From positions 1-64,000 of the forward strand of contig NZ_JAIXRZ010000016.1 of NCBI RefSeq assembly GCF_027484945.1: 64,000 nt of DNA, in the 5' to 3' direction. The stretch's first letter is position 1, and each line of letters starts with the position of its first letter. A program made the translations under genes and the position numbers. The notes below the pieces were generated by a model. The model searched no databases. It saw only the letters and a program-made list of their open reading frames with translations, and was not told the origin of the DNA. Source of the stretch: Flavobacterium sp. GTDB taxonomy: Bacteria; Bacteroidota; Bacteroidia; Flavobacteriales; Flavobacteriaceae. Positions 51,926 through 58,254 of this stretch are shown piece by piece.

Positions 51926-54058
51926 TTACAATAGCATTGTTAACTGAATGCGTTTTCTTGCTTCATCAACCTCAACTACTTTAACTTGAACGTGTTGGTG
52001 CATCTTTACCACTTCATTCACATCGGCAACATAACCTTCTTTGAGTTGCGAAATATGAACCAAGCCACTTTCTTTAATTCCGATATCTACAAAACACCCA
52101 AAAGCAGTAATATTGTTAACAATTCCAGGTAAAATCATTCCAGACCGTAAATTTTGAATTGTTTTTACATTGGGATCAAATTCAAAAACTTTGACAGCTT
52201 TACGAGGATCTAAACCGGGTTTTTCCAATTCTTTAATGATATCCTTAATCCCTAAAACCCCTGTCGTTTCATTAATATAATTTTCGGGTTTAAGCTGGGC
52301 TATTTTTGATTTATTCGCAATTAATTCAGAAATATTGATGCCTAAATCTTTAGCCATTTGCGTGACTACTTGATACGATTCTGGATGGACGGCCGAATTG
52401 TCTAGAGGATTTTTACCGTCTTTAATTCGAACAAAAGCCGCAGCTTGTTGAAATGCTTTATCCCCTAAACGCGGAACTTTCTTTAACTGATTCCGATCTT
52501 CAAACGGACCGTTTTCCGTACGAAATTTGACGATATTTTCAGCTATTTTCTCCCCTATTCCACTCACATAACTCAGTAAGGATTTACTTGCGGTATTAAT
52601 ATTTATTCCAACCGCATTCACACAACGAATTACCGTATTGTCTAGCTCTTCTTTTAGTTTGGTTTGGTCAACATCGTGTTGGTACTGCCCTACGCCTATC
52701 GATTTTGGATCAATTTTTACCAACTCTGCCAAGGGATCACACAAGCGTCGGCCAATTGAAACTGAACCGCGAACGGTAACATCATAATTTGGAAACTCTT
52801 CACGCGCAATTTTACTGGCCGAATAAACCGACGCGCCTGCTTCAGAAACCACAAATACTTGAATAGGTTTGTCAAAGGCGATTTTTTTTATAAAAAACTC
52901 CGTTTCGCGACTTGCAGTTCCGTTCCCGATAGAAATGGCTTCTATTTGATAAGCATTGACCATCGATTTAATTTTTTTCATGGCCATTGTCGTTTCATTT
53001 TGGGGCGCGTGTGGATAAATGGTTTCATTGTATAACAAATCGCCTTGTTCATCAAGACACACAACTTTACAACCGGTTCGGTAACCCGGATCAATTGCCA
53101 ACACACGTTTTTCACCAAGGGGCGGCGCCAACAATAATTGGCGTAAATTTTCAGAGAAAACTGCAATCGCTTTAGTATCCGCTTTTAATTTGGCTTCTTG
53201 AAGGGTTTCGTTGGAAATAGCTGGCTCAAGTAATCGTTTGTAGCTGTCTTTTATTGCTAATTCTAGTTGGATTCTTGTTTCATTATTACGTTTGATAATA
53301 GCTTGTTGAATAAAATCAATAGCCTCAGCTTTTTCAATTGAAAGCGATAATTTAAGGCAACCCTCAGCTTCTGCACGCAGCATAGCCAATAAACGATGGG
53401 AAGGTGCTTTTGAAATCGGTTCAGACCAATCAAAATATTGGACATATTTCTGGGCATTTTCTTCGGCTTCTTCTCCCTTTGCCACTTTGGTTGTAATGAT
53501 TCCTGAACGTTGAAACATTCGACGAAGATTTTTACGGACATACAAATTTTCATTAACCCACTCAGCAATAATATCGCGGGCACCTTGTAACGCCTCATCT
53601 TCGTTGGTTACAATAGCGGTTAAATACTTCGATGCTAAATACTCTACATCTTCAGTATTTTGGGACATAATAATTTTTGCTAAAGGCTCAAGCCCATTTT
53701 CGCGTGCTACATCGGCTTTGGTTTTCTTTCTCTTTTTATAAGGTAAATACAAATCTTCGATTTCCTGGAGGTCGAAACTGTTCTCTATTTTGGCTTTCAG
53801 GTCCGGACTCAATTGTCCTTGTTCTTCAATCGAGTTCAAAACACTTTCCTTGCGTTTCAAAATTTCGTTATACTGTTTATTGAGTTTGGCGATAGCTTCA
53901 ATGGCCACTTCATCCAAATTACCCGTTTTATCCTTACGATAACGGGCAATAAAAGGAATGGTACAATCTTCGGAAAGGAGTTGGAGTGTGGCTTCAATAC
54001 CTTTGATTCCTGAAACAGGAAGTTGTAATTGATTTTGAATAAACTGAATAGATGTCAT
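51926..54058 (-). CDS. tex: Tex family RNA-binding transcription accessory protein
   Basis: 710 residues from ATG 54058 (TSIQFIQNQLQLPVSG, the normal family start); the open frame reaches 54151 but the added 31 residues are hydrophobic and unlike the family. Domains in order: N-terminal helix-turn-helix-like region with IPFIARYRKDKTGNLDE, the YqgF/RNase-H-like core (AIDPGYRTGCKVVCLD), tandem helix-hairpin-helix (LLSYVSGIGEKIAENIVKFR), and a C-terminal S1 domain (GIVNNITAFGCFVDIGI). Tex binds RNA and influences transcription and stress tolerance in several bacteria. Confidence 0.95.
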   Translation of the reverse strand: MTSIQFIQNQLQLPVSGIKGIEATLQLLSEDCTIPFIARYRKDKTGNLDEVAIEAIAKLNKQYNEILKRKESVLNSIEEQGQLSPDLKAKIENSFDLQEIEDLYLPYKKRKKTKADVARENGLEPLAKIIMSQNTEDVEYLASKYLTAIVTNEDEALQGARDIIAEWVNENLYVRKNLRRMFQRSGIITTKVAKGEEAEENAQKYVQYFDWSEPISKAPSHRLLAMLRAEAEGCLKLSLSIEKAEAIDFIQQAIIKRNNETRIQLELAIKDSYKRLLEPAISNETLQEAKLKADTKAIAVFSENLRQLLLAPPLGEKRVLAIDPGYRTGCKVVCLDEQGDLLYNETIYPHAPQNETTMAMKKIKSMVNAYQIEAISIGNGTASRETEFFIKKIAFDKPIQVFVVSEAGASVYSASKIAREEFPNYDVTVRGSVSIGRRLCDPLAELVKIDPKSIGVGQYQHDVDQTKLKEELDNTVIRCVNAVGININTASKSLLSYVSGIGEKIAENIVKFRTENGPFEDRNQLKKVPRLGDKAFQQAAAFVRIKDGKNPLDNSAVHPESYQVVTQMAKDLGINISELIANKSKIAQLKPENYINETTGVLGIKDIIKELEKPGLDPRKAVKVFEFDPNVKTIQNLRSGMILPGIVNNITAFGCFVDIGIKESGLVHISQLKEGYVADVNEVVKMHQHVQVKVVEVDEARKRIQLTMLL

Positions 54059-54594: not shown

Positions 54595-54598
54595 TTTA

Positions 54599-55027
54599 TT
54601 AACACGTTATTTTTTGTACACGGGCTTGATGACGTCCGCCCTCAAAAGAGGTTTTTAAAAAGGTATCTACCATTTCCAATGCTTGAGGAATTGCTGTAAA
54701 TCGAGCAGGAATACTAATAATGTTTGCATTGTTATGTTGGCGGGCAAGAGCGGCTATTTCTTTTGTCCAACATAAAGCGGCGCGAACTCCTTCATGCTTA
54801 TTCACAGTCATATTAATTCCATTTCCAGAACCACAAATTACGATTCCAAAATCAACGTTTCCACGGGCAACATCCATCGCAACAGGATGTCCAAAATCAG
54901 GATAGTCTACACTGTCAAAAGTATCGGTGCCATAATTGATAACTTCGTGTCCTTGAGCTGATAAAAATTCAACGAGTGCTTTTTTATAATCGGGTCCGGC
55001 GTGGTCATTGCCAATTGAAATTTTCAT
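54599..55027 (-). CDS. rpiB: Ribose-5-phosphate isomerase B
   Basis: Interconverts ribulose-5-phosphate and ribose-5-phosphate in the pentose phosphate pathway. 142 residues of the LacAB_rpiB fold: IGNDHAGPDYKKAL, GTDTFDSVDYPDFGHPV and the active-site Cys in GIVICGSGNGINMTVNKHEGVRAALC. A -7 element lies 22 nt upstream of the start. Confidence 0.96.
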   Translation of the reverse strand: MKISIGNDHAGPDYKKALVEFLSAQGHEVINYGTDTFDSVDYPDFGHPVAMDVARGNVDFGIVICGSGNGINMTVNKHEGVRAALCWTKEIAALARQHNNANIISIPARFTAIPQALEMVDTFLKTSFEGGRHQARVQKITC

Positions 55028-55709
55028 GCGGTTGTATAGGTTGTTTGTACAAAGTTAGCGAATTAAGATTTTGGACACCTACAATCCTTAATAAAATCTT
55101 TTGAAAGCAACATTGTTATATAGTATTATTATAAAAATTAAAGAAGGGATTATTTTATTTAAGGTAAATAAAAAAACAGTACTAAATTTATGTAATATAT
55201 TGAAAATCAATATTATAATAAAAATAAAAAATATCTTGTTAATAGTAATTTACAATGTACTGATTTTCAGGTAACTTTAAATTAACATTGGATGTTAATA
55301 AATTTGAATAGAAAATTAGAACTTTCTTTAAGACGATAACAAATTTTTATAAGGTAAAATTAAACGCTGAAAACCAAATAAAGTTATTGGATTTTTTTGT
55401 AAAATTATTGACACAAAAAAGTAACTTTTCAACAGAAATTAACCTAAAAAGTTTTCAAAAATCTAGGATGTTTTTTTTTGTTGACAACTGTTAATAAATT
55501 CAGAAAATTAGTTTATTTTTAAAGATTTAGCTTCGTGAAAAAGTGTTAATATCAATGTATAATTAGATAAAAGTTTTAAATAAAAGAGCAACCATAAAAG
55601 TTTTCATCATTATTAACACCCTATTATAATCATCATAAAATTTTAAAAATTAATATTTATAAATGTTGTTTTTAAATCGTGTTGAAAACATTCCAATTTT
55701 AAATAATTT
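55028..55709. other. Candidate replication origin: AT-rich gene-free interval with TGTTAATA cluster
   Basis: 682 bases without a gene and very AT-rich. TGTTAATAA is found exactly at 55293-55301 and 55489-55497 and inverted (TTATTAACA) at 55610-55618. Near copies are TGTTAATAG (55237-55245), TGTTAATAT (55544-55552) and TTATTGACA (55405-55413). These differ by one base from the relaxed DnaA-box form TTATnCACA. The interval lies where gene direction changes from mostly - (left) to mostly + (right). It also carries the rpiB promoter at its left edge. Origin function is inference; there is no dnaA gene in the window. Confidence 0.45.
55050..55057 (-). promoter_or_regulatory. Bacteroidota -7 element (TAACTTTG) for rpiB
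   Basis: TAACTTTG on the - strand, 22 nt upstream of the rpiB ATG. Confidence 0.55.
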
Positions 55710-55943
55710 TTATACGATTGATAAGGGATTGTTTAGATCTTCTAGTAATTGTAGGGTTCGTTCTTTATTTTCTGGATGTACTTTGAGTTTAATACCGCCT
55801 AAAGCAATACTTGCAAAAGGATCAATAGAAACGATTGTTTCATTTTCAAAATAATAAGGAATAGATTCACGTTCCAATACTGTTTTTAAAATATACAGTT
55901 CTTGAGGGAGTTGAAAAATTGCAACAGTAATCATAGCATTCAT
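55710..55943 (-). CDS. DUF2007 family small protein
   Basis: 77 residues resembling DUF2007 (putative signal-transducing protein, ferredoxin-like small fold): VAIFQLPQELYILKTVLERE, ENETIVSIDPFASIALGGIK and KVHPENKERTLQLLEDL. DUF2007 is a small family of unknown role. It has only a weak -7-like site upstream (TACCTTTA, 55961-55968). It separates the proposed origin interval from rnr. Confidence 0.8.
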   Translation of the reverse strand: MNAMITVAIFQLPQELYILKTVLERESIPYYFENETIVSIDPFASIALGGIKLKVHPENKERTLQLLEDLNNPLSIV

Positions 55944-56073: not shown

Positions 56074-58254
56074 ATGCCTAAAAAACCAAAAAAGCTCGGG
56101 AAAAAAAAACATAATTTTTCTGAAAAAATATTTAAAATAATCGCTAATAATCCCAATAAACCATTTAATTACAAGCAAATAGCCGCTATTTTAGAATGTG
56201 ATGATACTAAAAGTCGTAATGAAATAATTAAAGACCTAAAAATTTTAGCATCTCAAAAGTTAATTACTGAAGTTGCCCCTGGTAAATATTTAGTTGAAAG
56301 TAATAATCAAGAATATTATGAAGGAATTATCGATATGACTTCACGTAAGACCGGTTATTTTGTTTGTGATGCGTTGGATGACGATGTTTTTATTCCTTTT
56401 ATGAATTTGAACCATGCTTTACATGGTGATCGGGTTAAAGTTTATATTTATAATAAACGCTCTTCCCGAAAAACAGAAGCAGAAGTAGTTGAAATTCTTG
56501 AACGTTCGAAAGTTGAATTTGTTGGGGTTATTGATATCCAAAAGAATTTTGGTTTTGTTACTACGGCTAATGCAAAAATGTATACCGATATTTTTATACC
56601 AAAAAATAAATTGAATGATGCCCAACACGGTGATGTGGTATTAGTTCGATTGGAAGATTGGCCAAAGAAAGCAGATTCTCCTCTAGGAACGGTAGTTAAA
56701 GTCCTTGGTAAACCCGGTGAACACGATACAGAAATTCATGCAATTTTAGCTGAATACGGACTTCCTTACGATTTTCCAATTGAAGTAGAAGCATTTGCAA
56801 ATAAAATAGATACTTCAATTACTGCAAATGAAATTGCTAAGCGGAGGGATATGCGAGATATTTTAACCTTTACTATCGATCCTAAAGATGCAAAAGACTT
56901 TGATGATGCTTTATCGTTTCAAGTTTTACCCAATGGAAATTATGAAATAGGGATTCATATTGCAGATGTATCGCATTATGTAAAAGAAGGAACTATTTTA
57001 GATGATGAAGCATTTAAACGGGCTACTTCAGTATACTTAGTTGATCGTGTAGTACCCATGCTACCTGAAGTACTCTCTAATTTTGCTTGTTCACTTCGTC
57101 CACATGAAGAGAAATATACGTTTTCAGCGGTTTTTGAACTAAATGATAAAGCTGAACTAGTACAGCAATGGTTTGGACGAACTGTTATATATTCAGATCA
57201 GCGTTTTTCTTATGAAGAAGCGCAATATATAATTGAAACAAAATCCGATTTAATTCCAGCAAAAATAGCTTTAACTGGTTCGGATTATTCCGTTCCAAAT
57301 CCTATTGTAGAAGCTGTATTAAAATTGGATGCTTTGGCTAAAATTATGCGTCAAAAACGAATGGCAGCTGGAGCGATTTCTTTTGATAAAGTTGAAGTAA
57401 AATTTAATTTAAATGAAAACGACGAACCGATAGGTGTTTATTTTAAACAGGCGAAAGAAGCTAATTTTTTAATTGAAGAATTCATGTTATTAGCCAATCG
57501 AAAAGTTGCTGAATTTATAGGTAAACAAAAGAAAACCTTTATTTATCGAATTCACGATGAACCAAATGAAGATAAATTAATTGGTTTACAGTCGATTATA
57601 TCAAAATTTGGCTATTCGATTAATTTTAAAACCAAACATACCATTTCAAAATCTTTGAATGACCTATTGGTTGAGGTTCAGGGTCGAAAAGAACAAAATT
57701 TAGTGGATACTTTAGCTATTCGTGCCATGAGTAAAGCGCGTTATTCTACTGAAAATATTGGCCATTATGGTTTAGCTTTCGATTACTACAGTCATTTTAC
57801 TTCACCTATTCGGCGTTATCCCGATGTAATGGCGCACCGTTTATTGCAACATTATTTAGATGGAGGAAAAAGTGTAAATGAAGAGGAATTTGAAGAAAAA
57901 TGTGAGCATTCTACTGATCGAGAAATTTTAGCTGCCAATGCCGAACGTGATTCTGTAAAATATATGCAGGTTAAATACATGAAAGATCATATGGATGAAG
58001 AATTTTTAGGCGTAATATCCGGGGTTACTGAATGGGGAATTTATGTTGAAATTATTGCAAATAAATGTGAAGGAATGGTTCGTATACGTGATATCAAAGA
58101 AGATTATTATGTTTTTGATGAAAAACAATATGCGTATATTGGTGAAATGTATAAAGGTTTATTACAATTAGGTGACGAGGTTTATGTTAAGGTGAAAAAT
58201 GCAGATTTAGTTAAAAAACAACTCGATTTTACCTATTTACGGAAAAATGAATAA
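56074..58254 (+). CDS. rnr: Ribonuclease R
   Basis: 3'-to-5' exoribonuclease that degrades structured RNA. 726 residues: N-terminal winged-helix/cold-shock part (YKQIAAILECDDTKSRNEII), two OB cold-shock domains (about 80-230), the RNB catalytic core with DPKDAKDFDDALSF (about 269-282, acidic metal ligands) and the YSHFTSPIRRYPD strand, and a C-terminal S1 domain. It opens a three-gene + strand run leading away from the candidate origin. Confidence 0.97.
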   Translation: MPKKPKKLGKKKHNFSEKIFKIIANNPNKPFNYKQIAAILECDDTKSRNEIIKDLKILASQKLITEVAPGKYLVESNNQEYYEGIIDMTSRKTGYFVCDALDDDVFIPFMNLNHALHGDRVKVYIYNKRSSRKTEAEVVEILERSKVEFVGVIDIQKNFGFVTTANAKMYTDIFIPKNKLNDAQHGDVVLVRLEDWPKKADSPLGTVVKVLGKPGEHDTEIHAILAEYGLPYDFPIEVEAFANKIDTSITANEIAKRRDMRDILTFTIDPKDAKDFDDALSFQVLPNGNYEIGIHIADVSHYVKEGTILDDEAFKRATSVYLVDRVVPMLPEVLSNFACSLRPHEEKYTFSAVFELNDKAELVQQWFGRTVIYSDQRFSYEEAQYIIETKSDLIPAKIALTGSDYSVPNPIVEAVLKLDALAKIMRQKRMAAGAISFDKVEVKFNLNENDEPIGVYFKQAKEANFLIEEFMLLANRKVAEFIGKQKKTFIYRIHDEPNEDKLIGLQSIISKFGYSINFKTKHTISKSLNDLLVEVQGRKEQNLVDTLAIRAMSKARYSTENIGHYGLAFDYYSHFTSPIRRYPDVMAHRLLQHYLDGGKSVNEEEFEEKCEHSTDREILAANAERDSVKYMQVKYMKDHMDEEFLGVISGVTEWGIYVEIIANKCEGMVRIRDIKEDYYVFDEKQYAYIGEMYKGLLQLGDEVYVKVKNADLVKKQLDFTYLRKNE

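Follow-up and report, generated by a model that had tools for sequence, protein, structure and literature searches.

Where does replication of this Flavobacterium chromosome begin? The question is raised by a gap without genes between rpiB and rnr in the window, a 64,000-nucleotide stretch of one contig in a 2.28-Mb draft genome of 73 contigs. The original prediction took this gap as the chromosomal origin, oriC. Our analysis supports that assignment with a cluster of boxes, a conserved core, and a GC-skew minimum located at the element itself in a closed genome of the same genus (G194). The core is mostly single-copy and has a conserved position and orientation, the skew switches at the site, and dnaA is located elsewhere. 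We conclude that the gap is very likely oriC.

The gap was described as 682 nt long, AT-rich and gene-free, and this is what we found between the start of rpiB at 55027 (-) and the next open reading frame (-). The predicted divergence of gene direction is also present. Among open frames of at least 150 codons, 38 are on the - strand and 8 on the + strand to the left of the gap, and 5 are on the + strand and 1 on the - strand to the right. The interval proposed for the origin, 55230-55620, is correctly located, but its right end is too short, as the conserved core and the AT-rich tract reach about 55669. The 77-codon frame at the gap boundary gave nothing in a Pfam search at E 0.001, and a DUF2007 label for it is not supported by Pfam. 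The least stable 60-mer of the window begins at 55193, also inside the gap. Together with the third least stable, it predicts an AT-rich unwinding element beside the boxes, as expected for an oriC. Coordinates of the features are listed in the table.

Table. Features of the putative origin region and its flanks (positions in the window)
Feature	Position	Strand	Basis
rpiB, ribose-5-phosphate isomerase B, flanking gene	54599-55027	-	Pfam PF02502, E 2.6e-57
Gene-free gap, very likely holding oriC	55028-55709	none	Open reading frames; 80% AT; GC-skew switch
Box TGTTAATAG, one mismatch	55237-55245	+ (canonical reading on -)	8-mer TGTTAATA conserved in relatives
Exact box TGTTAATAA	55293-55301	+	9-mer search
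Box TGTCAATAA, one mismatch	55405-55413	-	9-mer search of the gap
Exact box TGTTAATAA, conserved ACAACTGT just before it	55489-55497	+	9-mer search
Box TGTTAATAT, one mismatch, 67 nt before the core box	55544-55552	+	By eye, comparable + to - spacing in several relatives
Conserved core: box TTATTAACA (55610-55618), NN, CTATTATAATCATCAT, AT tract	55606-55669	+	Sole match of model R1 in its own genome, E 9.1e-6 (own sequence among the 45 used to build R1)
Exact box TGTTAATAA, the core box (reads TTATTAACA on +)	55610-55618	-	9-mer search
Candidate DNA-unwinding element adjoining the core box	55619-55669	+	Third-lowest stability in the window for the 60-mer at 55606
Possible degenerate third box TGTTGAAAA, 70 nt past the core box	55680-55688	+	By eye; weak
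77-codon open reading frame, gap boundary	55710-55943	-	Six loci of five other genomes have a 48-56% identical stretch between rpiB and rnr
rnr, ribonuclease R, flanking gene	56074-58254	+	Pfam RNB, E 1.7e-110

The gap was predicted to contain three exact and three one-mismatch copies of TGTTAATAA. All six are present where they had been placed and span 55237-55618, about 380 nt. A fourth exact copy at 54596 (-) overlaps the end of rpiB, outside the gap. When the gap (cut as 689 nt) was dinucleotide-shuffled 2000 times, TGTTAATAA occurred 0.10 times on average and never three times. The 8-mer TGTTAATA is found five times versus 0.21 expected, in agreement with the earlier estimate of well under one chance copy. 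Such a cluster of putative DnaA boxes, recognized by sequence, is expected at a bacterial oriC. Some 9-mer is present three times in 32% of the shuffles. Considered by itself, a repeat chosen post hoc is therefore weak evidence, and the weight rests on conservation in relatives. The complete list of exact 9-mers in this genome contains 47 copies of TGTTAATAA in 2.28 Mb, and the gap holds the densest group of them. The relaxed 9-mer TGTTRATAR is found at 138 places in this genome and at 266 in G142. We also observed that TGTTAATAA is rarer in this genome than its reversed control (47 versus 106), as though the chromosome avoided boxes elsewhere than at the origin. A box pair with fixed spacing matches this genome only at the gap. 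Of 23 genomes, only 3, this one included, have the pair at the rpiB gap and 4 have it elsewhere, and it was dropped as a general signature. A + box about 71 nt after a - box is seen in a number of relatives, which lends weak support to the possible box at 55680.

The boxes are conserved upstream of rpiB in relatives. RpiB is present in 144 of 149 family genomes, including this one. The first comparison used the 30 loci with the best RpiB scores (29 relatives and this genome) and 1500 nt upstream of rpiB. In this set, TGTTAATA is found 70 times versus 7.0 expected, in 24 of the 30 genomes, TGTTGATA 28 times versus 2.8, and ACAACTGT 19 times versus 1.4, in 16 of 30. Adding 18 closed genomes brought the set to 48 gaps, two other closed-genome stretches being removed because they duplicated loci already in the set. 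The first 900 nt of these gaps contain 145 TGTTRATA boxes (144 with full flanks), and three gaps have none there. Exact TGTTAATAA is present 50 times in the first 700 nt of the other 47 gaps, in 31 of them. The same count averages 3.9 in shuffles, with a largest value of 10, and is 6 in the reversed control. Loss of the 9-mers in relatives with the same gene order had been named as a possible refutation; they are conserved. A second set consisted of the 80 relatives with the best RpiB matches (75-85% identity), mostly titled Flavobacterium and possibly overlapping the family genomes. It includes four loci from one Flavobacterium paronense assembly and five with less than 500 nt upstream. Box density is 2.8 per 800 nt in 75 of these loci versus 0.25 in 689 other pieces, and in 14 of the 75 the 800 nt upstream are devoid of boxes.

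Alignment of 45 of the 48 gaps revealed a core of about 65 bp, composed in the window of the box TATTAACA, NN, CTATAATAAnCATCATT and a T/A tract (55606-55669). In the alignment, TATTAACA is followed by two free bases, CTATAATAA, CATCATT, and T-rich and then A-rich tracts. Three gaps that scored below -10 bits (G107, G073 and G023) were excluded. In G107 and G073, the core is located 1.9 and 2.3 kb upstream of rpiB. The aligned core box is TTATCCACA in 1 and TATTCACA in 3 of the 45 gaps. Given these four relatives, TTATTAACA is best read as the DnaA box of this lineage.

We searched 149 family genomes for the core with the sequence-only model at E<=0.001; the 45 positives used in model building are among them. 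The core is present in 122 genomes, with exactly one match in 116 of the 122. In 111 genomes it is located 274-649 nt upstream of rpiB (median 434 nt), with one orientation in all. Among held-out genomes, it is found in 77 of 104. Of these 77 cores, 66 are less than 1.5 kb and 5 are 1.7-2.8 kb upstream of rpiB, all in the same orientation. In the remainder, 4 are on a contig other than that of rpiB and 2 are in genomes where rpiB was not found. A single site per chromosome that is kept in relatives is expected for oriC. No core was found in 27 of the 149 genomes; stricter filters apply to this count, and several of these genomes are incomplete. Among the 80 best RpiB relatives, the core was found at E<=0.01 in 42, always upstream of rpiB and on the expected strand, and was not found at this threshold in 38. 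An order-wide draw of 119 genomes, some of them already searched, gave 22 matches. Seven of these are in other families, and rpiB adjoins four of the seven.

Several genomes deviate from this pattern. The closed genome G023 has no core at rpiB or genome-wide and no boxes just upstream of rpiB. Its rpiB and mnmG are about 322 kb apart, and only two close box pairs are found in 20 kb around mnmG. The origin in G023 (L034, L146) appears to have moved or diverged. In G130, a core-like match at C1:588495-588549 lacks a skew switch, and neither rpiB nor rnr is found within 60 kb of it; the real origin gap may be at the end of contig C4, which is reached 441 nt upstream of rpiB. The F. paronense assembly (L202, L208, L209 and L210) contains rpiB with the core four times on three contigs: two opposed copies on a 19.6-kb contig, one on a 15-kb contig and one on a 3.2-Mb contig. 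These are probably redundant origin contigs. Three loci titled Rhizobium, Nitrotoga and Chitinophaga (L199, L218 and L239) have a Flavobacterium-like rpiB contig and are likely mislabelled or contaminated bins.

GC skew provides a second line of evidence. A minimum elsewhere had been named as a possible refutation. Because this genome is divided among 73 contigs, skew was read over 84 kb of its own contig, not as a curve of the whole chromosome. The minimum is at 53,937, 1.1 kb from the gap, and skew is predominantly negative on the left side and predominantly positive on the right. Cumulative skew over the 120 kb read in G194 reaches its minimum at 2,547,347, inside the 57-bp element at 2,547,319-2,547,375. 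The sign is as expected in 18 of 18 sampled stretches (two touching the core were set aside), and it changes at the core and about half a chromosome away. In the closed genome G142, the minimum at 2,498,827 is in the rpiB gap and box cluster, 92 bp from the core match at 2,498,919, and 18 of 19 stretches have the expected sign (one was set aside). The sign is as expected in 9 of 10 stretches in G131, and the minimum in G061 is at most 0.7 kb from the gap centre. A skew minimum and leading-strand switch, as expected for oriC, is therefore found at the site, but the signal varies among relatives. In G123, skew is weak and locally reversed, and 6 of 10 stretches fit. The minima in G071 and G125 are 12 and 26 kb past rpiB, the latter at the edge of the stretch read, and that in G144 is displaced from the core by 12 kb. 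The skew of G080 becomes positive at the core, but its lowest value in the 120 kb read is found 55 kb away. When 10 kb on each side was compared in 20 closed genomes (one right side being only 0.9 kb long), skew was higher on the right in 16 and truly changed from negative to positive in 6, a noisy result.

The original prediction considered the absence of a nearby dnaA not unusual, and this is the case. The single dnaA of this genome encodes all three Pfam domains and is carried by a different contig (C70). All 23 closed relatives of the family have dnaA 0.7-2.0 Mb from the origin site. An origin adjacent to dnaA, where it is usually sought, is not found here: dnaA is distant in 22 of 22 closed relatives and in G194. 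Its distance from rpiB is 0.40-0.96 of the half-chromosome in the 22 (one chromosome length is rounded) and 0.42 in G194. In all of these, dnaA is in the outer 60% of the arm. This placement looks non-random and might be relevant to dnaA dosage over the cell cycle. An origin at dnaA itself was considered and rejected: a single box is present within 700 nt upstream in 3 of 23 loci, some of which start at a contig end, and there is no cluster. In 7 of 22 closed relatives, dnaA is within 1.1 kb of base 1 of the record, as if it marked the origin. A Lutibacter record is described in the available text as cut at dnaA (PMC5219744).

Other explanations of the gap were weighed against these data. In two Flavobacteriaceae genomes, Ori-Finder places oriC beside mnmG, according to the passages available (PMC11278836, PMC12843772). 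The gene is 6-56 kb from rpiB in 20 of the 21 closed relatives that have it, and is at 69612 on the contig studied here. That the origin lies beside mnmG, 15 kb to the right, and that the rpiB gap is merely nearby is nevertheless very improbable. In G061, G071 and G125, skew has one sign at mnmG and across nearly all of the approximately 50 kb to rpiB, and fades or changes at rpiB or beyond. The rpiB side therefore fits better. The skew minimum of G142 and G194 falls at the rpiB gap. Within the stretches read, the boxes at rpiB form the densest cluster in G142 and on the contig studied here and tie for densest in G061 and G071; they do not stand out in G125. In addition, a figure legend in PMC11278836 labels mnmG as ter, contradicting the text of that paper in the part available, and the intergenic region picked by Ori-Finder could be the same one.

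The repeats might instead be transcription factor sites or promoter parts for rpiB or rnr, since the gap is upstream of rpiB and, beyond the small open frame, of rnr, and intergenic repeats are often operators. We regard this as highly unlikely. Two genomes in which no rpiB was found, G080 and G144, retain the core, which is therefore not just an rpiB control site. Its distance from rpiB is 1.7-2.8 kb in five genomes, and rnr lies over 5 kb away in G121. A control site also leaves the chromosome-wide skew switch unexplained. An Rfam search of the gap found no family at its cut-off; the best, Lnt RNA, scored 25.5 bits versus 55 and was taken as chance. The cluster known as datA is composed of boxes that titrate DnaA. 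A similar titrating cluster, or chance repeats in AT-rich DNA, could produce boxes unrelated to firing, and the frequency of triple 9-mers in the gap shuffles is in keeping with chance. Either reading is extremely improbable given that 122 of 149 genomes have the core, 111 at one place and in one orientation, and given the skew minimum.

With the gap as oriC, we infer that DnaA binds there, that the DNA is unwound there and that replication fires from it. DnaA from the distant gene would bind the cluster of lineage-type boxes in the rpiB-rnr gap, TTATYAACA (TGTTRATAA on the opposite strand). It would spread from the core box at 55610-55618 over the adjoining CTAT...CATCAT stretch and open the T/A-rich tract at about 55619-55669. 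The helicase would be loaded at the opened tract, and two forks would depart in opposite directions.

The recognition helix of DnaA is RDHATV in 23 of 23 genomes, and the aligned solved DnaA 8btg, which we take to be that of B. subtilis, has RDHTTV. Residues 432-435 are among those contacting bases, and threonine is usual at 435, according to the available text of PMC5043019. The alanine at 435 may pair with the change in the box. These features could form a lineage-specific unwinding module in Flavobacteriaceae origins, TTATYAACA-NN-CTATAATAA-n-CATCATT-(T/A tract). In this proposal, DnaA with RDHATV (alanine for the base-contacting threonine 435) would read A at box position 6, and a CAT-phased stretch would replace GAT trios. 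The proposal implies a joint change of box and initiator at an origin kept beside rpiB-rnr and away from dnaA. We offer the proposal tentatively, as possible rather than probable.

Flavobacteriaceae is a large environmental family, and a dnaA at the start of a record is misleading, being far from the origin. The searchable core allows the origin to be located in draft genomes too. Coverage-based growth rates, strand-bias studies, origin plasmids and DnaA-box studies therefore become possible. Among the literature matches listed, the box is not described as a DnaA box in Flavobacteriaceae and no rpiB-side origin is given for the family; DoriC may hold a predicted entry. Experimental origin mapping for Flavobacteriaceae is also absent among the matches listed.

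Blattabacterium, another member of the Bacteroidota, has no DnaA boxes and no dnaA, according to the available text of PMC2768785. The Ori-Finder predictions share the chromosome region with our site, but the rpiB-rnr gap is tens of kb from mnmG in several genomes; dnaA is described as at odds with the GC-skew plot in the part of PMC11278836 available. Putative DnaA boxes in oriC of Mycoplasma hominis, M. arthritidis and M. mobile also include TTATTAACA, in the available text of PMC2751442. Unlike the site described here, Mycoplasma oriC is upstream of dnaA; the lineage is unrelated, and the likeness noted is in the box. The core resembles the BUS, a DnaA-box with DnaA-trios (PMC8287927, as far as its available text goes), in that a box is followed by a short trinucleotide repeat and an AT tract. 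The BUS prefers 3'-GAT-5' in that text, whereas the repeat here is (CAT)n-like. The BUS rule of at least three NAN trinucleotides within 16 bp of a box holds in 34 of 45 cores versus 46% of control positions. Compared to oriC of E. coli and B. subtilis, with their TTATCCACA boxes, the gap has the same clustered 9-mers in both orientations with an AT-rich tract alongside, the same GC-skew minimum and the same divergent gene direction. It differs in its box, which is TTATYAACA (position 6 changed from C to A) in most members, and in its location: dnaA is 0.7-2.0 Mb off in closed relatives, and the neighbours are rpiB and usually rnr.
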